The notes under the pieces are model-generated. The model was not told where the DNA came from. It worked only from the letters and a program-made list of their open reading frames with translations, and made no database searches. Positions 14,682 to 63,195 of a stretch of 64,000 bases of DNA are shown piece by piece. This stretch comes from Alteromonas sp. LMIT006 (lineage in GTDB: Bacteria > Pseudomonadota > Gammaproteobacteria > Enterobacterales > Alteromonadaceae): positions 1,054,001-1,118,000 of the forward strand of contig NZ_CP101291.1 of assembly GCF_024300645.1 (NCBI RefSeq). Direction: 5' to 3'. The translations under genes were made by a program, and so were the position numbers. The first letter of the stretch is position 1, and each line of letters starts with the position of its first letter.

Positions 14682-14781
14682 CTGTCATGATTTTGTCATC
14701 GTTGTGACATCAAATTTACGCAGAACTTTCATCAAACTGCCTTTGTTTAGAAAACAATTTGTCATTTATCTCCCTCACAAT
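14682..14781 (+). promoter_or_regulatory. phased array of six PhoB half-sites and promoter of the receptor-phosphatase unit
   Basis: The PhoB unit CTGTCAT recurs on an 11-bp grid: 14682 CTGTCAT (7/7), 14693 TTGTCAT (6/7), 14704 GTGACAT (5/7), 14726 CTTTCAT (6/7), 14737 CTGCCTT (5/7) and 14759 TTGTCAT (6/7). The grid positions 14715 and 14748 do not match. A -10-like CACAAT at 14776-14781 lies exactly 10 bp after the last unit, the spacing typical of PhoB-activated promoters where the Pho box replaces -35. The ATG of the TonB-dependent receptor follows at 14817. Confidence 0.82.
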
Positions 14782-14816
14782 GTGCGCAACTAAACTCACA
14801 TACTTAGGGAATATCC

Positions 14817-17138
14817 ATGACAAAATTACAACCACTAGCTATTGCAGTTGGCGTTGCACTAAGTGCCTCAGTATTAGCTGATACAACAGAAGAAAATAAA
14901 GTCATCGATGAGATCACCGTGGTTGGCAAGAGCGTGTCTTTTGCCAACAGTGCCACGTCTCAAGAAATGCAACTTCAACAATCTACTCTAACTAGTGCGT
15001 TAGCTGTTATTGACAACCTTCCGGGTGTATTGGTCAACGAAGGGGACACCTTCGGAGCGGATGATTGGTCTACTACTGTGTCAATTCGTGGTTTTCAGTT
15101 GAGCTTAGACGAGCAACAAATCGGTATTACTATCGATGGTATTGCGAACGGTAACTCAAATTATGGCGGTGGTGCCAAAGCCAACCGTTACATCGACACC
15201 GAAAACCTTCGCGGTGTAGACGTCTCTCAAGGTACAGCTGATATTGCTTCTCGCTCAAACGAAGCACTAGGCGGCACATTAAACTTCACCACCGTTAACC
15301 CAACCGAAGAGCAAGAAGTATTAACGAGTTTCTCTATTGGCGATTTTGGGGCGCAAAAGGCCTTTGCACGTATTAATACTGGTGAGATTGCGTCAGGCAC
15401 CCGTGCATGGTTCTCTGTTTCCAAATCGCAAAGTTCTGATTGGATTGATCAATCCGCTGAAAATGACCGTTTCCACATGGCTGCCAAAATGGTCAGCGAA
15501 CAAGGTCAAATGACCTACACTGGATATGTGTCTTTTGACGACACGCATGAAGATAACTATCAACGTATCAGCCTTGGACAGTTTGCAGAAAACCCTGAGT
15601 GGGACCGTCTCACATCAGAATGGACGGGAATTCCATACGTTGACCAGGCATATCGTCGCGGCTGGTCGACTTTGCGCGAAAACCTCTTTGCTTATCTTCA
15701 AGCAGAGTATGCAATAGATAACCTAACCGTGAAAGCCAATGCTTACATGCATCGCAACGAAGGTCGCGGTGATTGGGTGCCACCGTATATCGTTAATGTT
15801 ACAGATGATGGTGCAGGTAATGCCGAATCAGAAGTGACGACGGATAGAACTGTTCTGGGCGGCGCACCATTGGGTCGTTTATTCTTTGTTAACAATGCTG
15901 GTGTAGCCTTGGCACCGAATACAGAATGCCAAGGCTCAATTACTTTCCCTTACGGTGGCGCAGGCGCAGAGTATGACCCATTATGTTATGGCGCTGGTGC
16001 GGTTCCGGTTGGATCATATCGTCATACACATTATGAAAAAGACCGCGTTGGTATCAACGTAGATTTTGCTTACGATTCCATGATTGGTGATATTGTCAAC
16101 ACCACACGCGGTGGTTTCTGGTACGAAGATTACGAGCGTGGCGAATACCGTGACTGGCACCGTATGCTGGATTCTAAGACAGGCTATGAGTTCGACCACG
16201 TTGCTTATTGGAAGCAGTACGACCGTACTTTCCCAGTTGAAACCATGATGTTTTACATCGAAAACGAAATGGATTTTGGTGGCGTACAAGCGCGTATTGG
16301 TGCAAAACAGTTCTTGGTGGAATTAGAAGCGCAAGATAACTTCGCGAATACTTCAATTGACGTAAACTCTGATTCTGACTTGTTATTAAACGCAGGTTTA
16401 GTGGCACAAACGGGTGTTGACGGTTTAGAAATATTTGCTGGGTATGCGGAAAACTTCGCGGCAGTCAAAGACACAGTGTTAGAGCGCGACGCATCAGCCT
16501 TTGATTTGATTGAACCTGAAACAGCAGAAAACATTGATTTGGGTGTGCGTTACACGTCAAACATGATCAATGCTTCAGCAACCTTCTATGACATTACGTT
16601 TGAAGACCGCTTAGTCTTCTTGTCACCAGACTCACCGGATGCGATTAACTACTTAGTCGGTACCAACGGTTCATACGTCAATGTCGGCGGTATTGAATCC
16701 ACTGGTTTTGAGTTATCCGCAACGGTATATCTCAATGATAACTGGGCGGTATATGGTTCCTATACAGCAAACGAATCTGAGTATGCGGATGGTTCATTAG
16801 ATTACCCTCAAGGTAACACCGTATTTGGTTCGCCAGAAGACATGTACGTATTATCGATTGACTATGCCAAAGATAGTGTCTTTGCTGGCTTATCCAATAA
16901 ATACGTTGGTAAGCGTTGGATGGATGCGGCGAATTCACAACGCATTGATGACTATATGGTATCTGATTTGTATATCGGTGCGAGTTTAGAAAACTTTGCT
17001 CAAGGTCTAAAAAATGCCGAAGTGCGTTTAACCGTCAACAACTTATTTGATAAGAGCTATTTAGGTGGCGTTGCGGGACAATCGGCATGGATTGGTGCGC
17101 CTCGTACTGCAGCATTAAATGTGAACTTCACTTTCTAA
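14817..17138 (+). CDS. TonB-dependent outer-membrane receptor, PhoB-controlled (phosphorus source suspected)
   Basis: A 773-residue outer-membrane active transporter. A signal peptide (about 1-21, ending VLA) precedes a TonB-box-like DEITVVG near 31-37. A plug domain follows, with VIDNLPGVLVNEGD and TVSIRGFQ. The beta-barrel ends in the aromatic ALNVNFTF, as expected for assembly by Bam. The ligand is unknown and the protein is not one of the standard siderophore or B12 receptors by motif. The six-unit Pho array upstream and the secreted phosphatase gene 78 bp downstream argue for a phosphorylated or phosphate-bearing substrate. A terminator hairpin follows the gene, so the phosphatase probably receives partial readthrough. 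Confidence 0.9.
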   Translation: MTKLQPLAIAVGVALSASVLADTTEENKVIDEITVVGKSVSFANSATSQEMQLQQSTLTSALAVIDNLPGVLVNEGDTFGADDWSTTVSIRGFQLSLDEQQIGITIDGIANGNSNYGGGAKANRYIDTENLRGVDVSQGTADIASRSNEALGGTLNFTTVNPTEEQEVLTSFSIGDFGAQKAFARINTGEIASGTRAWFSVSKSQSSDWIDQSAENDRFHMAAKMVSEQGQMTYTGYVSFDDTHEDNYQRISLGQFAENPEWDRLTSEWTGIPYVDQAYRRGWSTLRENLFAYLQAEYAIDNLTVKANAYMHRNEGRGDWVPPYIVNVTDDGAGNAESEVTTDRTVLGGAPLGRLFFVNNAGVALAPNTECQGSITFPYGGAGAEYDPLCYGAGAVPVGSYRHTHYEKDRVGINVDFAYDSMIGDIVNTTRGGFWYEDYERGEYRDWHRMLDSKTGYEFDHVAYWKQYDRTFPVETMMFYIENEMDFGGVQARIGAKQFLVELEAQDNFANTSIDVNSDSDLLLNAGLVAQTGVDGLEIFAGYAENFAAVKDTVLERDASAFDLIEPETAENIDLGVRYTSNMINASATFYDITFEDRLVFLSPDSPDAINYLVGTNGSYVNVGGIESTGFELSATVYLNDNWAVYGSYTANESEYADGSLDYPQGNTVFGSPEDMYVLSIDYAKDSVFAGLSNKYVGKRWMDAANSQRIDDYMVSDLYIGASLENFAQGLKNAEVRLTVNNLFDKSYLGGVAGQSAWIGAPRTAALNVNFTF

Positions 17139-17153
17139 CAGTTTGGATTGTCT

Positions 17154-17201
17154 TGTTCCCTGGAACAGTCCCACTTCCGGATGGTTGTGGGACATTTTTT
17201 T
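17154..17201 (+). terminator. terminator or attenuator between receptor and phosphatase genes
   Basis: A small hairpin TGTTCC/GGAACA (17154-17159 with 17162-17167) abuts a stronger one, GTCCCAC (17168-17174) with GTGGGAC (17187-17193). The second is followed by A and seven Ts (17195-17201). It lies 29 bp after the receptor stop and before the phosphatase ribosome binding site (GGAGATAAGG), so it may set the ratio of receptor to enzyme. Confidence 0.8.
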
Positions 17202-17216
17202 ATTTGGAGATAAGGT

Positions 17217-19322
17217 ATGCGTCCTATAGTAATCACACTCTTTTGTTTATTATCACTAAATACCCAGGCTGCGGATAATGTATTGGTCGTTACGCTTGAT
17301 GGACTGCGTTGGCAAGAGCTATTTTATGGTGTCGATGAAACATTATTAGAAACGGAAGACAACCCACAGGTACGCGATGCGGTTATGGCAAGATATGGCC
17401 AAGGTACGATTGAGGAACGAAGAGCTGCTTTGATGCCGTTTTTTTGGTCTGAGATTGCCCAAAAAGGAACCCTTATTGGTGATCACCGCAATGATTCCAA
17501 AATGTCCCTGAGCAATGCTTGGTGGTTTTCATATCCCGGATACAATGAAATTTTAACGGGCGTTGCCGACGATAAAATTGACTCAAACGCATCTGAGTTC
17601 AATCAAAATAAGACGTTTCTCGAGTATTTACACAAACAAAATCATCATGTCGCTGCCTTTGGTAGTTGGGACGTATTTCCATATATTATCAATACTGAGC
17701 GCAATGACTTTGTGGTTAATGCTGGATTTACCGGGGTTAACTGGGACGATGCGTCAGAGCATGCACATTGGCTGGCAGAGCTGCAATCTCAGATCCCATC
17801 TCCTTGGTACACCGTGCGTTTAGATGCCTTTACCCATGGCTTTACACAAGAATACATCAAACAACACCAACCGAATATCATCTATGTTGCTTTAGGTGAA
17901 ACTGATGATTTTGCCCATGATGGAGAATATGTGCAGTATCTTCAAGCGGCTCACCGCAGTGACAGTTTTATTAAATCATTGTGGGAGTTACTACAATCCA
18001 TTCCACAATATAAGGATAACACGAATATCCTTTTGACGACCGATCACGGTAGAGGAACCACTCAATTAGACTGGACACATCATGCTTCAAAAGCGTCTCT
18101 CGATGGCTATATGAGTAAATTAAAGCCTGAATTTCCAGAAGGGATCGTCGACGCAGATCAGGTATGGTTTGCTGCTATGGGTCCCAACATCGCTCAACAT
18201 GGTATTGTTCGCTCTACAGAAACGTATTCATTGAATCAATTTGCAGCAACCGTGTTAGCCACTCTTGCTATAGATCATCGTGACTTTAATCCAAAAGCAG
18301 GGAAGCCACTTCCCGTTTTAACCCCCACAGCTCAGATTACACCGGTAAATGAAACAAAGAGTCTTACTCGTATCGGATTTGGTTCTTGTCTCAAAGAAAA
18401 TAAACCACAACCATTGTGGGATGATGTCATGGCGCAAAACCCTGATTTGTTTGTGTTGATGGGCGATAATGTCTATGGCGATACCGAAGATATGCAAGAA
18501 TTAGCAAACAAATATCAATTGTTAGCACAACAACCAGGCTTTGCGAAACTGCGCTCGATCACGCCAGTTATTGGGATCTGGGATGATCATGATTATGGAG
18601 AAAACGACGCTGGTGCTGAATATCCTAAAAAGGCAGAATCAAAACAGATTATGCTAGATTTTTTCGGTGAGCCTAAACATTCTGAGCGCCGGATGCGCGA
18701 GGATGGAGCTTACACGAGTTACATGTTTGATGATGGTAAACGCAAAGTTCACATTATTTTGCCAGATTTACGCTACAATCGAACACCATTAGAATCTGTG
18801 AATAAGCTCAACTATACCGTTAATCGCTTGCCTAACGACCAAGGGCCTTACCGCATCATAGATGCCTCTGAGGCGACGATGTTAGGTGAACAGCAATGGC
18901 AGTGGTTAGAGACAGAATTGGCTAAGCCAGCAGACCTGAAAATCTTGATTTCCAGTTTACAAGTTGTTGCAGATTTTACCGGATGGGAAGCTTGGGCAAA
19001 CTTTAAAGCTGATCAAAGTAGGCTGTATGGGTTGATCCAATCTTTGGCGTTAGATAATTTACTGATTATCAGTGGCGATACACATTGGTCAGAAATTTCT
19101 CGCCGGACTGTAGGCGACATTGATCTAGTGGATATGACAGCCTCTGGAATGACTGAAGAATGGAAGCAAATCTCTCCCAATCAATATCGAGCAAGTGAAG
19201 CGCATGCAATAGCGAATTTTGGTATGCTGACGATTGATTGGGATACCGACCCAATCAATGCCACATTGCAAATCATTGCCGAAGACGGCAAAGTGTTGAT
19301 TGAACAAAATTGGCGACGCTAA
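17217..19322 (+). CDS. secreted fusion of an alkaline-phosphatase-superfamily domain and a PhoD-like phosphatase domain
   Basis: A 701-residue protein with a signal peptide (about 1-19, TQA|AD). Domain 1 (about 20-365) has the alkaline phosphatase superfamily pattern. VVTLDGLRW holds first metal ligand D28, and WWFSYPGYNEILTG places candidate nucleophile S105. GETDDFAHDGE holds D231/H235-type ligands, and LTTDHGRG holds D276/H277; a further His lies at 288-289. Domain 2 (about 384-701) is a PhoD-like metallophosphatase: FGSCL, GDNVYGDT (416-422), WDDHDYGEND (about 455-464) and SGDTHWSE (619-626). Both active sites look intact. The protein probably acts in the periplasm or outside the cell on two classes of phosphoester. 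It follows a Pho-controlled TonB receptor. The stop overlaps the convergent ACT gene by 4 bp. Confidence 0.88.
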   Translation: MRPIVITLFCLLSLNTQAADNVLVVTLDGLRWQELFYGVDETLLETEDNPQVRDAVMARYGQGTIEERRAALMPFFWSEIAQKGTLIGDHRNDSKMSLSNAWWFSYPGYNEILTGVADDKIDSNASEFNQNKTFLEYLHKQNHHVAAFGSWDVFPYIINTERNDFVVNAGFTGVNWDDASEHAHWLAELQSQIPSPWYTVRLDAFTHGFTQEYIKQHQPNIIYVALGETDDFAHDGEYVQYLQAAHRSDSFIKSLWELLQSIPQYKDNTNILLTTDHGRGTTQLDWTHHASKASLDGYMSKLKPEFPEGIVDADQVWFAAMGPNIAQHGIVRSTETYSLNQFAATVLATLAIDHRDFNPKAGKPLPVLTPTAQITPVNETKSLTRIGFGSCLKENKPQPLWDDVMAQNPDLFVLMGDNVYGDTEDMQELANKYQLLAQQPGFAKLRSITPVIGIWDDHDYGENDAGAEYPKKAESKQIMLDFFGEPKHSERRMREDGAYTSYMFDDGKRKVHIILPDLRYNRTPLESVNKLNYTVNRLPNDQGPYRIIDASEATMLGEQQWQWLETELAKPADLKILISSLQVVADFTGWEAWANFKADQSRLYGLIQSLALDNLLIISGDTHWSEISRRTVGDIDLVDMTASGMTEEWKQISPNQYRASEAHAIANFGMLTIDWDTDPINATLQIIAEDGKVLIEQNWRR

Positions 19323-19723
19323 GGCGTTGCTCTATCACTCAATGCCTTAAGCACATTCATCGCATCTTGTGCATCTCTTTTCGCCACAAAAATGTGGTCG
19401 TGATAATATCCTGCGACCACATTAGCGCTGATGTTTGCTTTAGACAGTGCTTGAGCAAACGCAGCAGTTAAGCCAACAGCTTCTAGTGAAGAATGCACAT
19501 TTAAAGTTATGCAAGCGTAAGGGCCATCGGCCTTTATTTCTAATTCGTGAGCAATAGTTTCCTGTAAAATTAAAGTCACGCCTTCTTTTTCGACAAACAT
19601 GCCTTTTGCCAATGAGTACATTTTGGCTGTCGGATGGAGCACACTTGCAAAAACAAATGTTTCTGAGTCTAACTCAGGTGCCATCGAAGCAATAAGCGTG
19701 TTTAGATCAGTGATCCCAGTCAT
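19319..19723 (-). CDS. ACT domain-containing protein (ACT_3-like)
   Basis: A 134-residue cytoplasmic protein of the small ACT-domain family (often DUF2241/ACT_3). It starts MTGITDLNTLIASMAPEL; the ACT part includes YACITLNVHSSLEAVGLTAAFAQALSKANI followed by NVVAGYYHDHIFV. Members may bind amino acids, but no function is established. The ATG at 19723 is chosen because GGCGAG precedes it; a longer reading frame to 19783 would run through the dsbA terminator. The last 4 bp overlap the convergent phosphatase gene. Confidence 0.85.
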   Translation of the reverse strand: MTGITDLNTLIASMAPELDSETFVFASVLHPTAKMYSLAKGMFVEKEGVTLILQETIAHELEIKADGPYACITLNVHSSLEAVGLTAAFAQALSKANISANVVAGYYHDHIFVAKRDAQDAMNVLKALSDRATP

Positions 19724-19748
19724 AGTCTCGCCACTAGTGATTGCCGAT

Positions 19749-19779
19749 AAAAAAAAGCCGATACACACTGCGTACCGGC
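19749..19779 (-). terminator. rho-independent terminator of dsbA
   Basis: On the minus strand GCCGGTAC...GTATCGGC forms a stem (19772-19779 with 19757-19764), followed by eight Ts (complement of 19749-19756). It lies 23 bp after the dsbA stop. Confidence 0.85.
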
Positions 19780-19801
19780 ACAAGTTTCAACTAAATCGTC
19801 T

Positions 19802-20431: not shown

Positions 20432-20514
20432 ACTGTTTTTACTCTCATTAAGAATTGTTCAAATCATACTAATCGAGGTCTGAATGTAAACTTAATTACT
20501 TCGCTCAAGGCTGT

Positions 20515-22413: not shown

Positions 22414-22489
22414 GAAAAATGTATCCAATCAACTAAGTGCCCACCGCACCTATGAGTGATGTGTATCCATCTGCCACTTGCAGAGATAT

Positions 22490-42309: not shown

Positions 42310-42343
42310 TTTTAATAAAAATGTCATAAAGTCGGATGATAAT
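42310..42343 (+). promoter_or_regulatory. Pho box and -10 of phoB
   Basis: Two 7-bp units at 11-bp spacing, TTTTAAT (42310-42316) and ATGTCAT (42321-42327), form a Pho box. A -10 hexamer GATAAT (42338-42343) follows after exactly 10 bp. The phoB start is at 42372 with an AGGA ribosome binding site. This indicates autoactivation of phoBR, as in E. coli. Confidence 0.75.
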
Positions 42344-42371: not shown

Positions 42372-43058
42372 ATGTCTCGTTCTATTTTATTGATTGAAGA
42401 CGAAGCGCCAATTCGTGATATGTTACGTATTGTGCTTGAACAAGCCGGTTATGAAGTTGCCGAAGCAGGTGATTTTGATGAAGGTTTAGCCAAAGTGGTT
42501 GAACCGTTTCCAGATTTGATTTTGCTCGATTGGATGTTGCCAGGTGGCAGTGGTGTCCAGTTAGCGAAACGCTTAAAAGAGCAAGAGTATGCTCGAGATA
42601 TTCCCATCATTATGCTCACTGCACGTGGTGAAGAAGAAGACAAAATTCGAGGTCTTGAAGCCGGTGCGGACGATTACATCACCAAACCATTTTCACCCAA
42701 AGAACTGGTGGCACGAATCAAAGCCGTTATGCGTCGAGCCACGCCTACCACAAATGAAGAGCCGATTTCATATAGTGGTTTGGTGTTAGATCCTGTTTCG
42801 CATAGAGTGACTGCTAATGGTGACCCCGTTGATATGGGGCCAACGGAATTTAAGCTGTTGCACTTTTTTATGTCTCATGCTGAGCGTGTGTATTCACGTG
42901 AACAGTTGTTAGACAATGTTTGGGGGACGAACGTGTATGTCGAAGACCGAACGGTGGATGTGCATATTCGTCGTTTGCGCAAAGCGATTTCGCAACACGG
43001 ACATGATGCGATGATTCAAACGGTGCGCGGTGCGGGATATCGGTTCTCAGCAAAATAA
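42372..43058 (+). CDS. phoB: phosphate regulon response regulator PhoB
   Basis: An OmpR-family transcription factor activated by PhoR under phosphate limitation. It has 228 residues (E. coli 229). The receiver domain (about 1-120) has the acidic pocket EDE, phospho-acceptor D53 ([11 protein letters not shown]) and K in [11 protein letters not shown]. The winged-helix domain (about 130-228) contains [15 protein letters not shown] and the recognition-helix region [18 protein letters not shown]. The ATG at 42372 matches the family start [11 protein letters not shown]. phoR follows after 29 bp. Its predicted binding sites occur at four promoters in this window. Confidence 0.97.
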
Positions 43059-43087: not shown

Positions 43088-44407
43088 GTGTATTACCCAC
43101 TCTCTTTAAAAAAGAGTATCGGTATCCTAGTTGTATTTCTGCTTGTGTGGTTGGTAATAGGCAGTTGGGTCAACGATTACTTATTATCACTTAGTATCGC
43201 CATGGCGGGATTGGTCGTTTTTAATTACTATCAGCTATTTCGCTTGAACCATTGGATCTGGCATTCAAAAAGATTATCTCCCCCGTCTGTCTATGGTGCT
43301 TGGGAATACATTTATGAAGGTGTGTATTTTTTGCAGCGTCGCAACCGCGCTAAACGCAAAGAGTTAGGTGAGTTAGTTAAGCGCTTTAGGGAAGGAGCGG
43401 AAGCCTTGCCTGACGCGGTTGTGATCATCGATTCAGATTCAACGATTTTGTGGTGTAACCGTTTGGCCAGATTAGAATTGGGAATTCAATGGCCGTCTGA
43501 TTTGGGCTTGCGTATAGACAACTTATTACGTCATCCTTTGTTTGTCGAGTATTTTAATGAAGGAGATTTTTCTCATCCCATTGAAGTGCCGTCTCCAATT
43601 AATCAAAACAAGACCAATGAATATCGTATTATGCCCTACGGGGATGATAACTTGTTATTGATTTCAAGGGATGTAACACGTGTATCTCAACTAGAAGATA
43701 TGCGCAGAGATTTTGTGGCCAATGTTTCCCATGAAATGCGCACACCATTGACTGTGATTTCTGGGTATCTTGAAATGCTTCCTGAAAGTGCCGTTAATGC
43801 GGATCCGTTTGCTGGAAAGGCCCTGCATGAAATGTCAGAGCAAACTAAACGTATGCAACATCTGATTGAGGATTTGTTAGTCTTATCTCGCATAGAAAGC
43901 AGTTCGGAACGCATCTATGAAAATATCGTGCAAATGCCCAATATGCTATCGCAAATTGAGCAAGAAGCCTTGCGTTTAAACAAAGAGCATGGTCATTTGA
44001 TTCGTTTTCACATTGATAAGTCTTTAACCATGTTTGGTGTGGAAACCGAGATCCGTTCGGCGTGTTCGAATCTCATTTTTAACGCAATCAACTATACCCC
44101 TGCAAAAGGCCAAATCGACGTTCATTGGTATCGCGACGGTGATAATGCGGTCTTTAAAGTAATAGATAATGGCGATGGTATTGAAGAAAAACATTTGTTG
44201 CGGTTAACGGAACGCTTCTATAGAGTGGATAAAGCACGTTCACGTAAAACGGGCGGTTCAGGATTAGGCTTATCCATTGTCAAACACGTCTTAAACCATC
44301 ATAATTCAATGCTCAAAATAAAAAGCATCGTTGGAGTCGGCAGTGAGTTCTACTTTATTATCGGACCAGAATTGTTACCCGAAGTGGTTATGGACGCTAC
44401 TATTTAG
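43088..44407 (+). CDS. phoR: phosphate regulon sensor histidine kinase PhoR
   Basis: A membrane kinase/phosphatase that sets PhoB phosphorylation. It has 439 residues (E. coli 431). Two adjacent membrane segments (about 9-50), then a PAS domain (about 95-190, ALPDAVVIIDSDSTILWCN), a dimerisation domain with the phospho-acceptor H215 in NVSHEMRTPLTVISGYLEML, and an ATPase domain with N (LIFNAINYTP), G1 DNGDGI and G2 GGSGLGLSIVKHVL. The start is GTG at 43088 behind TTAGGG. Its 3' end overlaps the next gene by about 65 nt. As in E. coli PhoR, no large periplasmic sensor loop is present, so sensing probably goes through other proteins. Confidence 0.97.
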   Translation: MYYPLSLKKSIGILVVFLLVWLVIGSWVNDYLLSLSIAMAGLVVFNYYQLFRLNHWIWHSKRLSPPSVYGAWEYIYEGVYFLQRRNRAKRKELGELVKRFREGAEALPDAVVIIDSDSTILWCNRLARLELGIQWPSDLGLRIDNLLRHPLFVEYFNEGDFSHPIEVPSPINQNKTNEYRIMPYGDDNLLLISRDVTRVSQLEDMRRDFVANVSHEMRTPLTVISGYLEMLPESAVNADPFAGKALHEMSEQTKRMQHLIEDLLVLSRIESSSERIYENIVQMPNMLSQIEQEALRLNKEHGHLIRFHIDKSLTMFGVETEIRSACSNLIFNAINYTPAKGQIDVHWYRDGDNAVFKVIDNGDGIEEKHLLRLTERFYRVDKARSRKTGGSGLGLSIVKHVLNHHNSMLKIKSIVGVGSEFYFIIGPELLPEVVMDATI

Positions 44408-45362
44408 CATCTCGTTGACACTGTGTTTTCCAGCGTATTCTGATTCAGAAGAGCAACAGTTTGGAATTGTTGGCATCTTGCATTCAATTGGCTCTGATAC
44501 GTTAGATGATGTCATTACTCAGTGGGCGAGTGCCTTCCAAAAACGCTACCCCCATATTCGTATTCAAATCCAGACCTCAGGTTCATCTGCTGCACCCATA
44601 GCGATTATTGGTGGCACCGCTTCGATAGGGCCAATGTCTCGTCCCTTACGAGACTCCGAGCGGCAATCATTTGTCAAGAAATATCACTACGAACCAACGA
44701 TGTTAACGGTAGGCATCGATGCGATTGGTGTATTTGTCCACCCGGCCAATCCGGTGCAACAAATTTCACAATACGATTTGGATGCTGCATTTTCAGTAAC
44801 TCGCTTCTGTGGAGCTCGAAATAATATTAACCGTTGGTGGGGGCTAATAAAAAGCAATGATTTGACCGAATTTGCGCAATCAGAAATCCGCTTGTATGGA
44901 CGAAACTCAGCTTCTGGAACCTATGCGTTTTTTAAACAAACGGCCTTGTGTGCTGGCGATTACAAAGCTGAGGTTCATCAGCAACCGAGTTCGTCTGCGA
45001 TTATTCGGTCGGTTGCCAACCAAATCGACAGTCTTGGTTATGCTTCAATAGGTGCGATTTCGAATCTGGTAAAGCCACTGGCATTGGAAAATCAATCAGG
45101 TGAATACATATCATTGAACGAACAAAATATTCAATCAGGGGCTTATCCTTTAACTCGGAACCTATATTTAATGATTAATAAACCGCCAGAGGCGGATCTC
45201 TCTCCAAGCTTGAGGGCGTTTTTGCGTTTTATTTACTCGGATGAAGGGCAGTCCATTGTGTCACAGAATGGTTATGTGCCGGTATCTGATGCTATGCGCC
45301 GTCGTGAGTTGGCTAAGTTTGCCCCGCTAAAGACCAAGCAAATCCTTGAAGTTATTCGTTAA
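44343..45362 (+). CDS. PstS-like phosphate-binding protein, orphan
   Basis: A periplasmic substrate-binding protein of about 339 residues in the PstS family. A signal peptide region (KWLWTLLFSISLTLCFPAYS) precedes the binding fold. Phosphate-contact-type motifs are IGSDTLDD, QTSGSSAAPIAIIGGTASIGPMSRPLRDSE and YGRNSASGTYAFFK. The start lies inside phoR: GTG at 44343 is preferred because TTGGAG precedes it by 6 nt; a TTG at 44331 is the alternative. No pstC, pstA or pstB follows. It may serve a distant transporter or act as a phosphate sensor partner for PhoR; that is inference. Confidence 0.88.
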   Translation: MSSTLLSDQNCYPKWLWTLLFSISLTLCFPAYSDSEEQQFGIVGILHSIGSDTLDDVITQWASAFQKRYPHIRIQIQTSGSSAAPIAIIGGTASIGPMSRPLRDSERQSFVKKYHYEPTMLTVGIDAIGVFVHPANPVQQISQYDLDAAFSVTRFCGARNNINRWWGLIKSNDLTEFAQSEIRLYGRNSASGTYAFFKQTALCAGDYKAEVHQQPSSSAIIRSVANQIDSLGYASIGAISNLVKPLALENQSGEYISLNEQNIQSGAYPLTRNLYLMINKPPEADLSPSLRAFLRFIYSDEGQSIVSQNGYVPVSDAMRRRELAKFAPLKTKQILEVIR

Positions 45363-45382: not shown

Positions 45383-45432
45383 TTGTGACAATTTTCTCAT
45401 GTAACATTACTGTCATTTTCACCATGTAATCT
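45383..45432 (+). promoter_or_regulatory. tandem Pho boxes upstream of the duplicated-module lipoprotein
   Basis: Box A is TTGTGAC-AATT-TTCTCAT (45383-45400). Box B is ATGTAAC-ATTA-CTGTCAT (45399-45416). Each has two 7-bp units at 11-bp spacing. A weak -10, TAATCT, lies at 45427-45432, 10 bp after box B. The lipoprotein ATG is at 45489. Confidence 0.72.
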
Positions 45433-45488: not shown

Positions 45489-48296
45489 ATGCGTTTAAAG
45501 CACATCTTTCAAACGTCAGCACTTGCAGCGGCATTAGCGCTTGCTGGTTGTGGTGGTGATATCAACATTAGTGAAGGTGACATTGTTACTACTACTAATA
45601 CAACCAATAATAATGCGCCAAGCACACCAACCACTCCGACTACACCAGTCGATACAGCACCGGGTCAGGCATCAGCCTTTTTATCGACTCAAGTGTCAAA
45701 TGCATTGGGTGAGACAGTGGAAGTACGCACATTGTCAGGTCGTTTAACGGCGTCTGATGCGGATGCACAAGGAAAAGTCATACTTACCAATGACACAGTG
45801 TGGGCTCTAGAAGGCCCTGTCTTTGTCGGTGGTGATAATACCGATAGCGTCATTCTTGAAATTGAAGAAGGTACTATTATTTTCGGTCGCTCTGGAGCGG
45901 ATTACTTGGTTGTTAGCCGTGGTTCACAAATCGAAGCATTGGGTTCTGCGTCTGCTCCTATCCTAATGACGTCTTATAACGACGTGCTTGGTGATGTTGT
46001 TGGTGCTGGTCAATGGGGTGGTTTAGTTATTCTTGGTAACGCACCAACTAACGCTTGTGAAGTAGGCGACGCAACGTGCTCAATTCAGGTTGAAGGGGTA
46101 CAAGAAGGTGCTGTATACGGCGGTGTAGATAGCACTGACGATTCAGGTACATTAAACTACCTAGTTGTTAAATATGCTGGTTTCGAAATTGCACCAGATA
46201 ACGAATTAAACGGTATCACGTTTGGTGGCGTTGGTTCTGGTACGACGGTTGAGAACATCCAAGTTCACGCTAACGCGGACGATGGTATAGAATTCTTCGG
46301 TGGTTCTGTAAATGCTAAGAACGTTGTTTTAACTGGTATTCAAGACGACTCAGTCGATTGGGATCGCGGTTACAACGGCAAGCTTCAGTACATTTATATC
46401 CAACACGCACGTGACAACTCTGATGCCAACCGTGGTATCGAAGGTGACGGCGATGGTAGCGGTACGAACCCTAATTTCTCAGCTCCAATGGTAGCTAATA
46501 TCACCATCATTGGTAACGACTTTGACGGTGAAGATGATTCTGAAGGTGTTTTATTACGGGACCAAACGGGCGCAAAAATCATGAACATGCTTGTGACTGG
46601 CTCTGCTGGTATGGGCGAATGTTTAGAAATGGATCACGACGATACAGTGCAAGGTAACTTGCAAAACGGTGGAATCGAGATTACTCACTCTGTCATTTCT
46701 TGTGCAGAAGCATTTAAAGGCGTAGCTTCAGATCAAACTGGTCTGGATGCAGCTGGACTTGAAGCGTGGTTTGAAGGTCAAACTGGTAACCAAAACATTG
46801 CTTATGCAGACCGTGCTAACCTCGGCTTAAACATCGATGGTACGCTTACGACTGAGTCAGCATTATTGACAGCTGGCGGAAACCCTGCAAGCTTGGATAG
46901 CTTCTTTGAAACCAACTCATTCGTTGGTGCGGTAGGTGCTGATGACTGGCGTCAAGGTTGGGCATTTGGTTTTGGTGGCGGAACAGTTGACGTAGTGTCT
47001 ACTGCATCTGGCTGTCCTGCAGGTACCACAACGATTGCATCTGTTGATGGGGTAACACCAACTTGTCAAGTATCAGGTCGTTTAACTGCAAACTTACGTT
47101 TAACCGCAGGTAACCACTACGCTCTAGACGGTGCAGTATTTGTCGGTGGTGACAATGTTGATTCTGCAACCTTGACTGTTGACCCAGGTGTCATCGTTTA
47201 CGGTTCTTCTGGTAACGATTATCTTGTAGTTAGCCGTGGTTCGAAAATTGAAGCAAACGGTACTGCGTCAAACCCAATTACCTTTACTTCACGTCAACAC
47301 GCACAAAACCCAGCTACATTGGATAATGGCGCTGCTGGTCAATGGGGTGGTTTAGTTATCTTAGGTAACGCACCATCAACTAAATGTCCTGCAGACTCAG
47401 CTTGTGCACTTCAAGTAGAAGGTGTAGCAGAAGGTGCCGTATTCGGCGGTAACAACGAAGCTGACAACTCTGGTACATTACGTTACGTTCGCGTCATGCA
47501 CGGCGGTTTCGAAATCGCACCGGATAACGAGTTAAACGGTATCACGTTTGGTGGTGTTGGTTCCGGTACAACAGTTGAGTATGTACAAGTACACAAAAAC
47601 GCTGATGACGGTGTTGAGTTCTTCGGCGGTACGGTTAGTGCTAAGTACGTTGTTCTTACAGGTATCCAAGATGACTCGGTAGACTGGGATAACGGCTACA
47701 AAGGCAACATGCAGTTCGTACTGGTTAAGCACGCTGACGACAACTCTGATGCAAACCGCGGTATTGAAGGCGACGGTGACGGCGGTGATGACGCAGTTAA
47801 CTTTGGTTTCTCAAACCCAGTCGTTGCAAACATGACTGTGATTGGTAACGACTTCGACGGTGAAGACGATTCAGAAGGTTTACTATTACGTGACCAAACG
47901 TCTGCTAAGCTATATAACTTCGTAGTGACTGGTTCTGCTGGCATGGGCGAGTGTTTAGAGTTTGACCATGACGACACAGTACAGGGTAACCTCACTAACG
48001 GTAACATGGTTATCTCGACTTCAGTGCTAGCCTGTGCCGAGAACTTCAAAGGTGTCGCATCTACCGAAACAGGTTTAGACGCAGCCGGTGTTGAAGCATG
48101 GTTCCTAGATGCCTCTCGTAACAATGCAGTTGCAACTGACCAAGCAGCAGTGTTAAACGGTATCTACACAATTGACACTTCAGTGACTGCAACGGATGCA
48201 GCAACACTTGGTAGCTTCTTTACAACAACTGATTTCATCGGTGCGGTAAAAGATGCGCAAAACGATTGGACAGCAGGTTGGACTGTAGGTCTATAA
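45489..48296 (+). CDS. large surface-type lipoprotein with two tandem homologous modules, PhoB-controlled
   Basis: A 935-residue predicted lipoprotein of unknown function. The lipobox LAGC places the lipid on C21, followed by GGD, so outer-membrane sorting is expected. A Thr/Pro/Asn linker (about 35-65) leads to two modules of about 400 residues (about 75-490 and 529-935). Both contain, in order, SGRLTA, FVGGDN, DYLVVSRGS, GQWGGLVILGNAP, FEIAPDNELNGITFGGVGSG, GIQDDSVDW, NRGIEGDGDG, GNDFDGEDDSEG, GSAGMGECLE and GLDAAG. The Asp/Gly clusters suggest calcium binding, and the strand-rich repeats suggest a right-handed beta-helix. It lies after tandem Pho boxes and before a TonB-dependent receptor. 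A SusD-like role in substrate capture is a guess by analogy. Confidence 0.85.
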   Translation: MRLKHIFQTSALAAALALAGCGGDINISEGDIVTTTNTTNNNAPSTPTTPTTPVDTAPGQASAFLSTQVSNALGETVEVRTLSGRLTASDADAQGKVILTNDTVWALEGPVFVGGDNTDSVILEIEEGTIIFGRSGADYLVVSRGSQIEALGSASAPILMTSYNDVLGDVVGAGQWGGLVILGNAPTNACEVGDATCSIQVEGVQEGAVYGGVDSTDDSGTLNYLVVKYAGFEIAPDNELNGITFGGVGSGTTVENIQVHANADDGIEFFGGSVNAKNVVLTGIQDDSVDWDRGYNGKLQYIYIQHARDNSDANRGIEGDGDGSGTNPNFSAPMVANITIIGNDFDGEDDSEGVLLRDQTGAKIMNMLVTGSAGMGECLEMDHDDTVQGNLQNGGIEITHSVISCAEAFKGVASDQTGLDAAGLEAWFEGQTGNQNIAYADRANLGLNIDGTLTTESALLTAGGNPASLDSFFETNSFVGAVGADDWRQGWAFGFGGGTVDVVSTASGCPAGTTTIASVDGVTPTCQVSGRLTANLRLTAGNHYALDGAVFVGGDNVDSATLTVDPGVIVYGSSGNDYLVVSRGSKIEANGTASNPITFTSRQHAQNPATLDNGAAGQWGGLVILGNAPSTKCPADSACALQVEGVAEGAVFGGNNEADNSGTLRYVRVMHGGFEIAPDNELNGITFGGVGSGTTVEYVQVHKNADDGVEFFGGTVSAKYVVLTGIQDDSVDWDNGYKGNMQFVLVKHADDNSDANRGIEGDGDGGDDAVNFGFSNPVVANMTVIGNDFDGEDDSEGLLLRDQTSAKLYNFVVTGSAGMGECLEFDHDDTVQGNLTNGNMVISTSVLACAENFKGVASTETGLDAAGVEAWFLDASRNNAVATDQAAVLNGIYTIDTSVTATDAATLGSFFTTTDFIGAVKDAQNDWTAGWTVGL

Positions 48297-48418: not shown

Positions 48419-51067
48419 ATGAAAAATTCTAACCATAGGTTTCCTGTTGCACCTTTATCAATTGCTATTTTAGCAGCATTATCTTTTACGCCGGCAGTAC
48501 ATGCTCAGGAAAGCGAAGATGAAGTCATTGAAGAGGTTGTTGCGACGGGTACACGCTTAAAAGGAACGGCAACAGCGGTTCTTGAAGAGCGTAAAAACCA
48601 AGCATTCGTTGCAGATATCTTAGGTGCTGAGCAAATCTCACGTACCGGTGATAGCGATGCAGCATCAGCTTTACGCCGTGTGACAGGCCTTACGCTTGTC
48701 GATGGTAAATTTATTTATGTTCGTGGTTTAGGTGAGCGTTATTCATCAACGCTTCTAAACGGCGCAAATGTGCCAAGCCCGGATCCAACTCGTAACGTTA
48801 TTCCACTGGATTTGTTCCCATCAGATATTATTGAAAGTCTCTCGGTACAAAAATCTTATTCACCGTCGATGCCTGCATCGTTTGGTGGTGGTAACGTGGA
48901 TATTCGTTTAAAGTCTATCCCTTCAGACTTTATTTTTAATGTGTCAGCGTCTTTGGGGACGAATTCAGAAAACAGTGGCGATGCCATTGGTTATAACGGC
49001 GGTGACCGCGACTGGTTTGGCGAAGATGACGGTTCGCGTGCAGCGCCTGCTGTGATTGTTGAACGCTGGACAAATAAGAACTTTTTAGATGGTCTTGAAC
49101 AAGAAACGGCTCTATCGTATTTCTCGCTAATGAAGCGCGATTACGATCCTGTTTTTGAGTCAGTTGGTCCTGATTTTGGTTTGAGCCTTTCTTTAGGCAA
49201 TAACTACGACATCAATAATGATTGGCGTTGGGGTTATTTGCTGACGTCAAGCTATGACCGTGGTACTAATGTCTCGGAAGAATACGAGCTTGAACAAGCT
49301 AACCGTGTAGGTGATATAACTGAAATTGTTCGTTTTTTCGATGAAGTTTTAGTCACGGAGAAGACGGTAAAATGGTCAACTATGTTCAACCTAGGTCTCG
49401 ATTATAACCGCAATCATCGCGTGGATTATTCACTCATCGCCCTGAACGATACCTCTGATGAAATCAAAGAGAAGTTTGGTAATACTGAAAACTTCAACTT
49501 AGGTGAAGGGTTGCGCATACGCGATATCGGTGTCGATTACGAAGAACGTCAAATGTTTACCAATCAAATTAAAGGCATGCATACTTTCCCAGAGTATAAC
49601 TTCGCTGGTTTTGATTGGAAATATTCACTCGGTCGTTCGATTCGTAATGCTCCTGGTAGTTTTAAAACCCGTTTCTTGATGGAAGATCTCAATGGTGATG
49701 GCATGTTTGATACCACCAATGAGATTGCTTTGACAAACTCAACGGGTGCGGCGCAGTACGATTTCCAAATCTTACATGACCGGGTTGAGAACTACGGTTA
49801 TAACTTTACTTTGCCCGTCACGACTGAAGATTGGGAAATGGAGTTTAAATTCGGTGCAGACTTCCTAAGCAAAGCGCGTACCGCTGAAAACCGTCGTATT
49901 GCGGTGAGCACACGTGCGTTTACTAACTCGTCTGATCTTGCTGGCGGTGCGTTCGCTGACATCATGAGTAACGATGTGCTTGCAAACGGCGATTTCCGCG
50001 AAGGTACGCCTTTGATCCGTGACTTGACGATCGCAGGTGATGATTATGTTGCTGCACAAAAAGTCGATGCATATTACCTTGAAGGTGATTTTTTCTATCA
50101 AGGCAAGTGGCGCTTTAGCGGCGGCGCTCGCTTTGAAGACTTCCGTCAAGCGGTTGTACCTTTTGATCCTCGTACGAATCAAATTGATTTGGCAGATGAA
50201 GATGATCGCGCCCAATTAGCATTCCAAGAAGATGACTTCTACCCAGCATTTGCCTTGACGTACTTTATGGAATCAGACATGCAGTTACGTGCTTCCATTG
50301 GTCAAACCGTGGTTCGTCCTGATTTGCGTGAAGTATCATCTGCTACGTATATCGACCCATTAACTGAGTTCCCAGTTGCGGGTACTCCAGGTGTACGTAC
50401 TACGTCTATCTTAAACTATGATTTGCGTTGGGAATGGTACCGTGAAGCTGGTAATAACGTCTCTGTTGGTATTTTCTATAAGGATATGGAAGACCCGATT
50501 GAATCAGTACAGTCTCCAGCCCAGGATGGTCCGCCATTGATTCGTATTGCCAACGCTGAAAGCGGTACCTTGTTTGGTGTCGAAATTGAGTTCTTGCAAG
50601 ATTTGATGTTTGTCGGTGACGGTATTTGGGAAAACTTGTTCTTGTCAGGTAACGTGACAATCTCTGATTCAGAAATTGAATTAGATCGTCAAAACATCGT
50701 TGAGCAAACCGGTGTGTCAGCAGCGATTACTAATACAAAACGTCGTTTAACTGGTCATTCTGAGTATGTAGTGAACCTACAGCTTGGTTTTGATTCTGAT
50801 AATGGTGAGCGCAGTGCATCATTAGTGTACAACGTATTTGGTGACCGCATCTTGATCCCAGGCATTGACGGTTTTGATGATAACTTTGAGAAACCGTTCC
50901 ATTCTTTGGATTTGGTCTACAAGTTTTATCCAGATTTTAACACGACATGGACATTCAAGGTGGGTAATATCCTTGGTGAAGAAAAAGAGTTAGAGTTTGA
51001 AGACACACTCTTGCGTCGTGAGAGCAAAGGCACGAGTGTCAGCTTGTCGTTCAAATACGATTTCTAA
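48419..51067 (+). CDS. TonB-dependent outer-membrane receptor, partner of the Pho lipoprotein
   Basis: An 882-residue outer-membrane receptor. A signal peptide ending AVHA is followed by the TonB-box-like EEVVATGTR. The plug contains DSDAASALRRVTGLTLVDGKFIYVRGLGERYSSTLLNGANVPSPDP, a motif set typical of a large marine-gammaproteobacterial receptor group. The barrel ends GTSVSLSFKYDF. The ligand is unknown. It follows the PhoB-controlled lipoprotein gene by 122 bp with no Pho box of its own, so expression probably comes from the 45.4-kb promoter through the intervening hairpin. A clear terminator follows. Confidence 0.9.
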   Translation: MKNSNHRFPVAPLSIAILAALSFTPAVHAQESEDEVIEEVVATGTRLKGTATAVLEERKNQAFVADILGAEQISRTGDSDAASALRRVTGLTLVDGKFIYVRGLGERYSSTLLNGANVPSPDPTRNVIPLDLFPSDIIESLSVQKSYSPSMPASFGGGNVDIRLKSIPSDFIFNVSASLGTNSENSGDAIGYNGGDRDWFGEDDGSRAAPAVIVERWTNKNFLDGLEQETALSYFSLMKRDYDPVFESVGPDFGLSLSLGNNYDINNDWRWGYLLTSSYDRGTNVSEEYELEQANRVGDITEIVRFFDEVLVTEKTVKWSTMFNLGLDYNRNHRVDYSLIALNDTSDEIKEKFGNTENFNLGEGLRIRDIGVDYEERQMFTNQIKGMHTFPEYNFAGFDWKYSLGRSIRNAPGSFKTRFLMEDLNGDGMFDTTNEIALTNSTGAAQYDFQILHDRVENYGYNFTLPVTTEDWEMEFKFGADFLSKARTAENRRIAVSTRAFTNSSDLAGGAFADIMSNDVLANGDFREGTPLIRDLTIAGDDYVAAQKVDAYYLEGDFFYQGKWRFSGGARFEDFRQAVVPFDPRTNQIDLADEDDRAQLAFQEDDFYPAFALTYFMESDMQLRASIGQTVVRPDLREVSSATYIDPLTEFPVAGTPGVRTTSILNYDLRWEWYREAGNNVSVGIFYKDMEDPIESVQSPAQDGPPLIRIANAESGTLFGVEIEFLQDLMFVGDGIWENLFLSGNVTISDSEIELDRQNIVEQTGVSAAITNTKRRLTGHSEYVVNLQLGFDSDNGERSASLVYNVFGDRILIPGIDGFDDNFEKPFHSLDLVYKFYPDFNTTWTFKVGNILGEEKELEFEDTLLRRESKGTSVSLSFKYDF

Positions 51068-54413: not shown

Positions 54414-54422
54414 TTAAATAGG

Positions 54423-55067: not shown

Positions 55068-55077
55068 TAAACAACAA

Positions 55078-55939: not shown

Positions 55940-56021
55940 ATACTATTTTAATTTTTCTTTGGGTAGAAATTAAAAATAACGAATTTGTCGAACTTTGTAT
56001 AGTGTAAGGCTCAAATACGAA

Positions 56022-56054
56022 AAAAGCCAATGAGCACGACACCCATTGGCTTTT
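56022..56054 (-). terminator. rho-independent terminator of acnB
   Basis: On minus AAAAGCCAATG pairs with CATTGGCTTTT (56054-56044 with 56032-56022), followed by further Ts. It lies about 20 bp after the acnB stop. Confidence 0.87.
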
Positions 56055-56075
56055 GATTCTACAAGCGATTAGTGA

Positions 56076-58874: not shown

Positions 58875-59079
58875 CGTATGTAACGCCTTTTTTTAAATCC
58901 ATTAATGATTAACCCGCGGATTATATGAAAAAAGTGAGTCAATGCCCATAGGTAAGAGGTGTCATAATCATAATTCATGCTATGAATGGTTTGAAATCCT
59001 TTTATATCAAGGATTTATTACCACTATACCTTAGTTGTAATCCCTTGGTGATTGTGTGAAATCTTAGCGGGTATTGGTT

Positions 59080-59718
59080 TTATTTGGATTGTAAAAGGAC
59101 TATTTGCTCGTTTGCGGAGACTTTTCCTTTTAAGCCGTCCTCCAGCACAACGCTCTCTAAACACTTGATGTTAAAGTGATGGCTGTAGTGTTTTTCAATT
59201 TCTTGCATATCAATGCTAAACGGTGGGCCAGATAAAGCTGATTGGTCGTAGACAAACGTGACCAATAACATGGGGCACTGTTCAGTGAGCATGGGTAACC
59301 TTCGCACATAGCGTTGTCGGATCTCTGGCGGCAAAGCCACCATGGCCGCGCGGTCGTATACCGCATCGATAGGCCCTAATTGCTCCGGCGTTAAGGCAAA
59401 AAAATCCCCCACAAACAAACAAATATTCTCATATGAGTAGCATACGTGGTCGCCAACTATTTTGATATTGGGAGATAGATTTCGCTCCGCAAAAAATTGC
59501 TCAACCGCGGATTCATTCAATTCAACGCCTATTACTTCACAGTCTTGTGAGGCTATCCATTCAATATCAACGGCTTTGCCACATAAAGGGATAAATACTC
59601 TTGCCTGGTGCGGCAAAGCCAACGCTGAAAAATACCTCGCAAGCAATGCATTGACTTGACCTTCGTGAAAGCCAATCTCTTGTTTCGTCCATCGGTCATG
59701 CCAAAATTCATGATGCAT
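59080..59718 (-). CDS. tpm: thiopurine S-methyltransferase
   Basis: An SAM-dependent methyltransferase of 212 residues that methylates thiopurines and, in bacteria, tellurite or selenite. It begins MHHEFWHDRWTKQEIGFHEGQVNALL, and the SAM-binding sites are VFIPLCGKAVDIEWIA and VIGVELNESAVEQFF. The later AVYDRAAMVALPPEIRQRYVRRL is a family signature. It lies 17 bp or so after the upstream prolyl oligopeptidase gene on the same strand and may share its transcript. Confidence 0.94.
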   Translation of the reverse strand: MHHEFWHDRWTKQEIGFHEGQVNALLARYFSALALPHQARVFIPLCGKAVDIEWIASQDCEVIGVELNESAVEQFFAERNLSPNIKIVGDHVCYSYENICLFVGDFFALTPEQLGPIDAVYDRAAMVALPPEIRQRYVRRLPMLTEQCPMLLVTFVYDQSALSGPPFSIDMQEIEKHYSHHFNIKCLESVVLEDGLKGKVSANEQIVLLQSK

Positions 59719-59737
59719 TGCTCAACGTCCTCTTTGA

Positions 59738-61936: not shown

Positions 61937-62244
61937 GGAGCTATCCTTCTTGTCGTTTTTATTATTATCACGGCAAATCACAACACAAAATTAGGAGCTT
62001 GCCAAGGGAGGAATTGTAAACACTTATTTTTGTAATATAGTTATTTTTAATCATACCGATAAAACTTTACGGAGTGATATTCACAGAAAGTTAAACCCAT
62101 AGCATATGTCGAATCATTGAATCTCTTGGCCATTAAACCCACCAAGCAGCTGATGGGCGAGACGCCATCGAGCAACTCCAAACCCTTACAGTAGACTGTG
62201 ATTAACCTTCATAAGCAAAAAAGCGAGCCGGATAGGCAGGATAG
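61937..62244. other. 308-bp intergenic region with no gene seen
   Basis: On minus it holds the leader of the oligopeptidase gene, with a possible promoter TTGGCA-17-TGTGAT. A small hairpin GATGG/CCATC (62152-62156 with 62165-62169) is present. I see no reading frame with coding character, no Pho box and no clear terminator for ppk2. Confidence 0.5.
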
Positions 62245-63051
62245 TTAAAGCCCGAGTTGTTCTTTTGCCAAGCCGATTACATCAGGATCAAGTGGCGGAG
62301 GAGTGATGTCTATTCCAACACTGAGTTGGTCTACAACGGTTTGCAAAACGGCCAAACGAGCATACCACTTGTGGTTGCCTGGAATAACATGCCAAGGAGA
62401 ACGCACGGTAGAAGTATGAGTAAACATTTGATTAATCGCAGTTTGATAGTCAGCCCATTTTTCTCGGTTTCGCAAATCTTCGGTGGTCAATTTCCAACGC
62501 TTCATTGGATTGTGTAAACGTTCAGCAAAGCGTCTGAGTTGTTCATCTGCACTGATGTGCATGAAAATCTTAACAATCCGCGTATCGTCAGCCAATTGCA
62601 TTTCTTCAAATTGATTGATTTCACAATATGCTCTATGCCACTCAGTTGTGTTGGCAATGCCTTCTACGCGTTCGACTAGCACCCGCCCGTACCAGGAACG
62701 GTCAAAAATCGCGATATTACCTTTTGCTGGCAATCGATTTTGAAAGCGAACCAGATAGTGTTGCGATAATTCCGTAGGTGTGGGCGCACTGATTGGATGT
62801 ACTGAATAACTTCGCGGATCAAGCTTCTCAGTCATACGCCTGATCGCTCCACCTTTTCCGCTGGCATCAGTACCTTCAAATACAATAATGGCACGTTTAT
62901 TTTGATGCCAATAAACTTGCTGGATGGCTAGTATTGATGTTTGCAAAGATATTAATGCGCTTTCATATGCCTTTTTAGAACCTTCATATTTAATAGCTGC
63001 AGAGATAGCTGATAACTGATTTGCTTGCAACGCATTTGGTGTGCTGTTCAT
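62245..63051 (-). CDS. ppk2: polyphosphate kinase 2 family protein
   Basis: A 268-residue PPK2, a P-loop kinase that moves phosphate between polyphosphate and nucleoside mono- or diphosphates. The Walker A motif is GTDASGKGG (60-68). The Walker B region is NIAIFDRSWYGRVLVERVEG. The lid contains RRFAERLHNPMKRWKLTTEDLRNREKW. The ATG at 63051 is chosen because the longer frame to 63231 would run through the Pho promoter of the divergent gene and gives an N-terminus without family resemblance. A PPK2 next to a PhoB-type promoter fits phosphate economy, but no Pho box faces this gene. Confidence 0.92.
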   Translation of the reverse strand: MNSTPNALQANQLSAISAAIKYEGSKKAYESALISLQTSILAIQQVYWHQNKRAIIVFEGTDASGKGGAIRRMTEKLDPRSYSVHPISAPTPTELSQHYLVRFQNRLPAKGNIAIFDRSWYGRVLVERVEGIANTTEWHRAYCEINQFEEMQLADDTRIVKIFMHISADEQLRRFAERLHNPMKRWKLTTEDLRNREKWADYQTAINQMFTHTSTVRSPWHVIPGNHKWYARLAVLQTVVDQLSVGIDITPPPLDPDVIGLAKEQLGL

Positions 63052-63161
63052 ACAATATAACCTTAAGGAGAAATGACGTATCCTAAATAAGCATAGCCGC
63101 ATAATCCTTGTTCTCCCACCCCAAATAGTTCCCGCATGACAGATGTGTGAATATGACAATT

Positions 63162-63195
63162 TTGTAATAAAACTGTCACACATTGCATTTATTAT
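63162..63195 (+). promoter_or_regulatory. Pho box and -10 of the DUF3450 gene
   Basis: TTGTAAT-AAAA-CTGTCAC (63162-63179) is close to the E. coli Pho box consensus CTGTCATAAAACTGTCAC. A -10 hexamer TATTAT (63190-63195) follows after exactly 10 bp. The start codon is at 63246. This is the best single Pho box in the window. Confidence 0.85.

Follow-up and report, generated by a model that had tools for sequence, protein, structure and literature searches.

The stretch analysed here, hereafter the window, comprises 64,000 nucleotides (C1:1054001-1118000) of the single-contig 2.53 Mb genome of Alteromonas sp. LMIT006, and it quite likely holds a PhoB-controlled locus for outer-membrane phosphorus acquisition that was once one stretch and is split here into two blocks about 12 kb apart. 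The first block carries phoB, phoR, a pstS-like gene, the gene of an ElpS-like lipoprotein (elpS, protein P0001) and that of a TonB-dependent receptor (P0002), and the second begins with a DUF3450 gene and continues beyond the end of the window as a TonB cluster, called cluster A below. The ancestral order, as judged from relatives, was probably phoB-phoR-pstS-elpS-receptor-ttpB-ttpC-exbB-exbD-tonB-ttpD. A further PhoB-linked pair of receptor and phosphatase genes, which ends 23 kb upstream of phoB, would belong to the same proposed PhoB-controlled set. The whole is probably an import system with its own TonB supply that is switched on when phosphate is short, its induction, its energising and the direction of transport being what we infer from gene families, promoters and linkage. 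An earlier note on this DNA had described these units as dispersed; they are better read as one locus split here.

The locus is found as one stretch, running from phoB and phoR through (pstS), elpS, receptor and DUF3450 to the TPR gene, in the relatives G001, G003, G005, G011 and G013 (in the last of these no PstS match was obtained for the gene behind phoR). The elpS-receptor pair and the TonB cluster stand together without phoBR in G006, G008 and G010, about 6 kb apart in G002 and about 20 kb apart on the same contig in G015. Two relatives, G014 and G022, have the pair without a TonB cluster in the stretch read; in the latter a TonB-like gene immediately precedes elpS. G012 and G016 carry phoBR-pstS with no ElpS match, and G004 also gave no ElpS match. 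Additionally, 20 of the 39 ElpS-positive genomes of a wider sample of the order were inspected, four more (our own genome, G010, G011 and G022) being already covered. The full locus was found in two of these 20 (G210, G118), the pair adjoins the TonB cluster in five (G167, G143, G221, G179, G155) and is separated from it by two genes in G086, and no such adjacency was seen within the stretch read in the other 12. A P0002 homologue is the next gene after elpS in every elpS locus of the inspected relatives and further order genomes. ElpS matches were also present in 21 plasmid records, seven of which were inspected, and the Alteromonas macleodii plasmid pBGP9 (NZ_OX359244.1, L348, 238 kb) carries the full phoBR-pstS-elpS-receptor-TonB locus, in which pstS and elpS are separated by a 2OG-Fe(II) oxygenase gene, so the trait may be movable between strains. 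The TonB cluster lies just before elpS in Pseudoalteromonas CF6-2 and Bsw20308 and in the unannotated NC201; on a Marinobacter plasmid a weaker ElpS match stands without an adjacent receptor gene or TonB cluster. It is the one-stretch locus in relatives and on pBGP9 that leads us to read the window as holding a split locus, and the grouping of the parts is unlikely to be due to chance because related bacteria often carry them side by side. The proposal of the earlier note, one outer-membrane phosphorus system with its own energy supply, is borne out as far as the physical coupling of the TonB cluster to elpS-receptor, and partly to phoBR-pstS, in relatives is concerned.

Co-occurrence was assessed in 247 genomes of the order, a sample not chosen by linkage, in which cluster A was scored by a TtpC identity of at least 61% (the next match has 48%) and the ElpS and TtpC scans had the same sample size, the same settings and matching genome handles. 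Cluster-A TtpC was found in 20/247 genomes and ElpS in 39/247, and all 20 cluster-A genomes possess ElpS (Fisher p 5e-19, ignoring descent). Cluster A lies at most 10 kb from elpS in 13/20 of them and at most 25 kb in 17/20. A second TtpC-type match (40–48% identity) in the same 20 genomes is no more than 10 kb from elpS in one (G143), farther away on the elpS contig in seven and on another contig in 12; one such match was counted per genome, G200 and G240 each holding one more off the elpS contig. The other-contig cases (12/20 for the second match, 3/20 for cluster A) are those in which the distance is not measurable in draft genomes.

The Pho boxes that the earlier note had placed at 14682, 42310, 45399 and 63162, all on the plus strand, are confirmed by conservation in orthologous promoters. 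A plain two-unit Pho pattern with at most two mismatches gave 74 matches in the window against 75.8 expected, showing no excess; since the pattern is no commoner than chance it proves nothing alone, and conservation across orthologues was used instead. Promoters of orthologues, our own genome counted, were scored against an Escherichia coli-type Pho consensus of 18 positions with a threshold of at least 13. The threshold was reached by 11/11 phoB promoters, 14/15 elpS promoters and 6/6 promoters of the receptor and phosphatase pair, and all 14 cluster-A DUF3450 promoters had a site of at least 14/18. Two controls remained below it: none of nine promoters of the paralogous TonB cluster B (best 12) and none of seven upstream regions of the receptor inside the elpS operon (best 11) had such a site. 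Some scores of 13 are unremarkable singly, those of the elpS promoters of G001 and G015 being equalled by 31 and 34 of 200 shuffles respectively; the 15/18 of site 14682 was equalled by 1/200. Among additional genomes, 15/24 further elpS promoters and 6/6 further phoB promoters reach 14.

A position weight matrix (PWM) was trained on 33 sites from relatives only, with our own genome (G000) and the near-identical G007 excluded, and among 127,934 positions it gave the three best scores to sites 63162, 45399 and 42310, in this order. Leaving out all promoters of the respective gene kept each of them within the first three: site 63162 (rank 1–2) was second with 27.9 bits without the DUF3450 promoters, 45399 (rank 1–3) was third with 19.7 bits without those of elpS, and 42310 (rank 2–3) was third with 20.0 bits without those of phoB. 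Site 14682 ranked fourth to fifth in three trainings (12–14 bits) and dropped to rank 25 (3.3 bits) in the matrix trained without elpS sites. A possible second site of the same promoter, at 14748, ranked 7–9 of 127,934 (7.8–11.0 bits) and is present too in a close relative (L038). A minus-strand Pho-type site at 45391 (13–17 bits) was also seen in the elpS promoter region, facing back towards pstS. The genome-wide Pho-box scan suggested in the earlier note was too loose with a first pattern (101 matches against 60 in a reversed control) and gave 23 against 6 with a refined pattern, which was composed after the sites of the window were known, so that its perfect matches on three of them are circular. 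A fourth perfect match, at C1:1899402 (L318 ~2403-2435), has no listed gene downstream in its direction and may represent chance or an unannotated transcript.

The earlier note had also ascribed the same geometry to all four promoters, with a -10-like hexamer 10 bp after the box, and this stands for phoB, elpS and DUF3450. TAnnnT occurs exactly 10 bp after the box in 12/14 elpS and 12/14 DUF3450 promoters, and nAnnnT in 11/11 phoB promoters, compared with at most 2/14 (TAnnnT) and, for phoB, at most 2/11 (nAnnnT) at any other spacing between 5 and 16 bp. The count left out the elpS promoter of G013 (best score 11, below 13), whose gene start may be misplaced. For promoters of the 14682 type the claim fails, TAnnnT being found at this spacing in 0/6 and nAnnnT in 2/6, with no conserved -10.

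The TonB genes expected after the DUF3450 gene, a check set beforehand, were found beyond the window end together with ExbB and ExbD. The DUF3450 gene is followed by genes for a 453-aa ExbB-like (TtpC-like) protein, ExbB, ExbD, TonB and a TPR protein (L030:1247-6282; to C1:1122281), and the TPR gene would be TtpD-like by its position as last gene. A second such TonB cluster, cluster B, lies at C1:1440.5-1445.5 kb in the same genome. The DUF3450 gene has a common intergenic region with a divergent ppk2 gene, which was absent from the earlier note, and the 63162 box might accordingly serve ppk2, in which case the DUF3450-TonB cluster would be an ordinary iron or housekeeping system. Polyphosphate genes often belong to Pho regulons, and ppk1 in the same genome has an 18.2-bit site. 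However, the conserved box and -10 face DUF3450 and are kept in that direction in genomes with no ppk2 match such as G001, G002, G003 and G005, so that conservation of the box does not depend on ppk2. In the direction of ppk2 the highest-scoring site has 6.4 bits, under the 99% point of 7.0 bits of the null (1,796 random 290-bp windows of our own genome); ppk2 is rejected as owner of the box on these two grounds. As for an iron system, a Fur consensus matched 10–11 of 19 positions in the 14 cluster-A promoters, the same as in random windows, and an equally unclear 10–13 in cluster B, in a search that had no positive control. A ppk2-owned box beside an iron or housekeeping cluster is thus very improbable. 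In the sister genome G007 (C37:45374-45508) the match to PPK2 is confined to its first 45 residues and is interrupted by a stop, and in G009 a 64% PPK2 homologue occupies the same place.

The lipoprotein P0001 contains two Asp-rich units that are 62% identical to one another. Its homologues are about 525–560, 927–961 or 1356–1385 residues long, lengths that agree, as do two repeat motifs, with one, two or three units, although counts of the motifs are unclean in some rows. ElpS-like proteins of one-, two- and three-unit length occur in different lineages (45489-48296; L338, L346, L348; L276-L278). P0001 gave no match at E <= 0.001 in Pfam, NCBIfam or a sequence search of the PDB, where just a nanobody appeared at E 0.2. 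The predicted structure of the unit, made from a two-row alignment of the protein's own halves, has a mean predicted local distance difference test score (pLDDT) of 51.7 and gave no Foldseek match at E <= 0.001; the rows beyond this threshold are mostly right-handed beta-helix enzymes and tailspikes, which is no more than a hint. The naming follows gene order: in Sphingomonas and Indioceanicola a P0001 homologue precedes a TonB-dependent receptor gene and then type II secretion system (T2SS) genes, and ElpS (CC0170) of Caulobacter crescentus is reported to be followed by CC0171 and gsp genes in that order (PMC2996285). The likeness to ElpS lies in the gene order that these two alphaproteobacterial homologues share with Caulobacter, and P0001 may be of the same family as CC0170. 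Caulobacter ElpS is made under phosphate starvation and is linked with alkaline phosphatase activity of the supernatant, and both systems place a surface lipoprotein gene before a TonB-dependent receptor gene in a phosphate-starvation context (PMC2996285). Unlike the Caulobacter pair, the present one is linked in relatives to a Ton motor and not to T2SS genes, and the lengths of its lipoprotein correspond to between one and three repeat units (PMC2996285). The neighbours of the pair in the window are the PstS-like gene on one side and strictosidine-synthase-like and AbgT-type genes on the other; there are no T2SS genes beside it, T2SS genes elsewhere in the genome not having been sought.

Since T2SS genes come after elpS-receptor in Sphingomonas and Indioceanicola, and the Ton cluster takes that place in many of the Alteromonadaceae read, it might be thought that the Ton motor drives the release or surface assembly of ElpS, in place of type II secretion, rather than import. 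We consider this unlikely: Ton systems are known for energising import, a replacement in gene order does not show one in function, and in Pseudoalteromonas the Ton cluster precedes elpS. A broader conjecture would treat elpS-receptor as a portable phosphorus-scavenging module, joined to T2SS in alphaproteobacteria and to a dedicated, PhoB-switched TtpBCD-TonB motor (for release or movement of ElpS as well as import) in Alteromonadaceae, with the number of ElpS repeat units (one, two or three) tuning capacity; this is speculative and we hold it to be rather unlikely.

The reading as a PhoB-controlled import locus with its own motor has also to face a number of observations that weigh against it. 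The phoBR-pstS-elpS-receptor block and the TonB cluster lie in different places in G000, G007 and G017, and cluster A is on a contig other than that of elpS in G130, G200 and G240. In the order sample 18/20 cluster-A genomes come from one family, and the p value given above takes no account of descent. The split of A from B, which has 100/100 support in the TtpC tree of 35 proteins and counts in favour of the reading, came with a warning from the tool that long A–B branch joins may mislead, and the TonB of cluster B could equally energise the ElpS-linked receptor. On the side of the promoters, the PWM training sites were picked with the same consensus, which the model therefore shares; the DUF3450 promoters of G010 and G015 lack a -10 at the 10-bp spacing, and those of G221 and G179 score 11. 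The boxes fade with distance, since 5/12 of the more distant DUF3450 promoters reach 14 and 10/12 reach 13 (among 1,200 windows drawn at random from the same loci, 17 reach 14 and 71 reach 13). Furthermore, in Caulobacter CC0171 is reported to be expressed constitutively, and ElpS was still produced after CC0171 had been deleted (PMC2996285). Finally, G009 has phoBR-pstS and cluster A with no ElpS match, which means that the motor can serve something else. This last case leads to the possibility that PhoB controls all of these genes and that the TonB cluster works as a second motor of general use, for whatever receptor phosphate stress induces, with no dedication to ElpS, in favour of which it can also be said that several receptors bear Pho sites (the one at 14817, the one at 48419 via elpS, and an Oar-like one with 23.0 bits). 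We regard such a general motor as a possibility to be taken seriously, if not a probable one, because it is cluster A and not the second TtpC-type cluster that is linked to elpS (13/20 compared with 1/20) and elpS is present in every cluster-A genome of the sample.

The features of the window are collected in the table. The gene contents of the four units are as given in the earlier note, according to Pfam searches. The start of phoB was picked by eye after AAGGAA, the longest open reading frame beginning at 42336. The phosphodiesterase and PhoD-like parts of P0004 are separate adjacent genes in several relatives (L043, L044, L039, L040, L260); the closest named relative of the fusion protein is from a Glaciecola metagenome-assembled genome (94%), which marks the host as a Glaciecola-like member of the Alteromonadaceae. 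Neither a PDB sequence search nor NCBIfam gave a match for the fusion protein at E <= 0.001.

Table. Positions in the window of the proposed PhoB-linked genes, their promoter sites and the adjacent ppk2 gene.
Feature	Position	Strand	Evidence
Pho box 5' of the receptor and phosphodiesterase/PhoD pair	14682..14715	+	consensus score 15/18
Possible second, promoter-proximal Pho site, CACAAT 10 bp after	14748..14781	+	PWM
TonB-dependent receptor P0005	14817..17138	+	PF00593, PF07715
P0004, type I phosphodiesterase-like domain fused to PhoD-like phosphatase	17217..19322	+	PF01663, PF09423
Pho box and -10 (GATAAT) of phoBR-pstS	42310..42343	+	PWM, conservation
PhoB response regulator	42372..43058	+	PF00072, PF00486
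PhoR sensor kinase	43088..44407	+	PF11808, PF00512, PF02518
PstS-like phosphate-binding protein	44331..45362	+	PF12849; TIGR02136 under its cut-off
Pho box and -10 (TAATCT) of elpS-like gene	45399..45432	+	PWM, conservation
ElpS-like Asp-rich lipoprotein P0001	45489..48296	+	lipobox LAGC, repeat alignment, homologue gene order
TonB-dependent receptor P0002, partner of ElpS-like protein	48419..51067	+	PF00593, PF07715
PPK2-family polyphosphate kinase, divergent from DUF3450	62245-63102	-	PF03976
Pho box and -10 (TATTAT) of DUF3450-TonB operon	63162..63195	+	PWM, 14/14 orthologous promoters
DUF3450 (TtpB-like) gene, truncated by window end	63246..64000	+	PF11932

Outside the window, the genome also contains pstC-pstA-pstB-phoU (C1:1196.7-1201.4 kb, without pstS and with ppk1 divergent) and a PhoA-family alkaline phosphatase (PF00245) with a weak Pho site of 9.7 bits, above the 99% point of 7.0 of the null; the contrast that the earlier note drew with the classic PstSCAB-PhoA layout does not hold in that form. 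What is unusual is that just one protein of the genome, the PstS-like one next to phoBR, matches PF12849 (PstS-type) and that the pstC promoter has no detectable Pho box (best -4.9 bits); a pstSCAB-phoU set in one cluster under a Pho box was not encountered here. Further genes of the regulon were found by pattern or chosen by hand, so the list is incomplete. Among them, ppk1 (L285, C1:1194.4-1201.4 kb) has its 18.2-bit Pho site and the divergent pstCAB-phoU next to it has none, the Oar-like receptor gene (L319:1001-4120, minus strand) has a 23.0-bit site, and a glycerophosphodiester phosphodiesterase gene (L321:3126-4097, minus strand) has one of 20.2 bits. A gene for a 101-aa protein (L031:5374-5679, minus strand; C1:167.4-167.7 kb) carries three overlapping Pho sites of 14.5–21.6 bits and is probably strongly phosphate-controlled; the protein has a secretion-type N-terminus and no Pfam match.

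Each of the parts is known already. The six-gene order of DUF3450, long ExbB-like, ExbB, ExbD, TonB and last TPR gene is that of the Vibrio TonB2 and TonB3 systems, in which the DUF3450 gene is called ttpB, its neighbour ttpC and the final gene, presumably the counterpart of the TPR gene, ttpD (PMC6957404). Vibrio TonB2 is up in low iron and has a potential Fur site (PMC6957404), whereas cluster A has Pho boxes. The nearest precedent found for a PhoB-linked TonB motor is PUMA3 of Pseudomonas aeruginosa, whose exbB2-exbD2-tonB4 is likewise a TonB operon in a PhoB-dependent low-phosphate regulon; it differs in needing the sigma factor VreI and in being transcribed with phdA-pdtB, and the accessible part of the paper names no ElpS-receptor pair or DUF3450 gene (PMC4971064). 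The Caulobacter PhoB regulon, as here, includes several TonB-dependent receptors, PstSCAB and phosphatases, and the word ExbB is absent from what was accessible of the main text, which thus has no TonB motor under that name (PMC11208175). What may be new is the TtpBCD-type Ton system with Pho boxes and linked to elpS, no description of such a system under PhoB or linked to elpS having been found in the literature searched, which lay mostly outside subscription journals.

The proposed mechanism would begin with phosphate limitation, under which PhoR and PhoB, going by their families, would become active. PhoB would then bind the boxes, which like their spacing are recognised by conservation, and recruit RNA polymerase to a -10 fixed 10 bp downstream. 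The ElpS-like lipoprotein may capture or help to process a phosphorus source at the cell surface, which the partner receptor would import. The co-induced TtpBCD-ExbBD-TonB motor would energise the ElpS-linked receptor and perhaps other PhoB-linked ones, a role suggested by linkage, by co-occurrence and by the known role of such Ton systems. The phosphatases, by their families, would free phosphate, and PstS would hand it to PstCAB.

Six-gene TonB motors are known from Vibrio iron uptake, and here a clade of them has Pho boxes and travels with an ElpS-receptor pair. This is a pointer to phosphorus import energised by TonB among marine bacteria, and it supplies a definite set of genes for a substrate hunt. 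It would also offer a role for Caulobacter ElpS, as the surface partner of an energised receptor.

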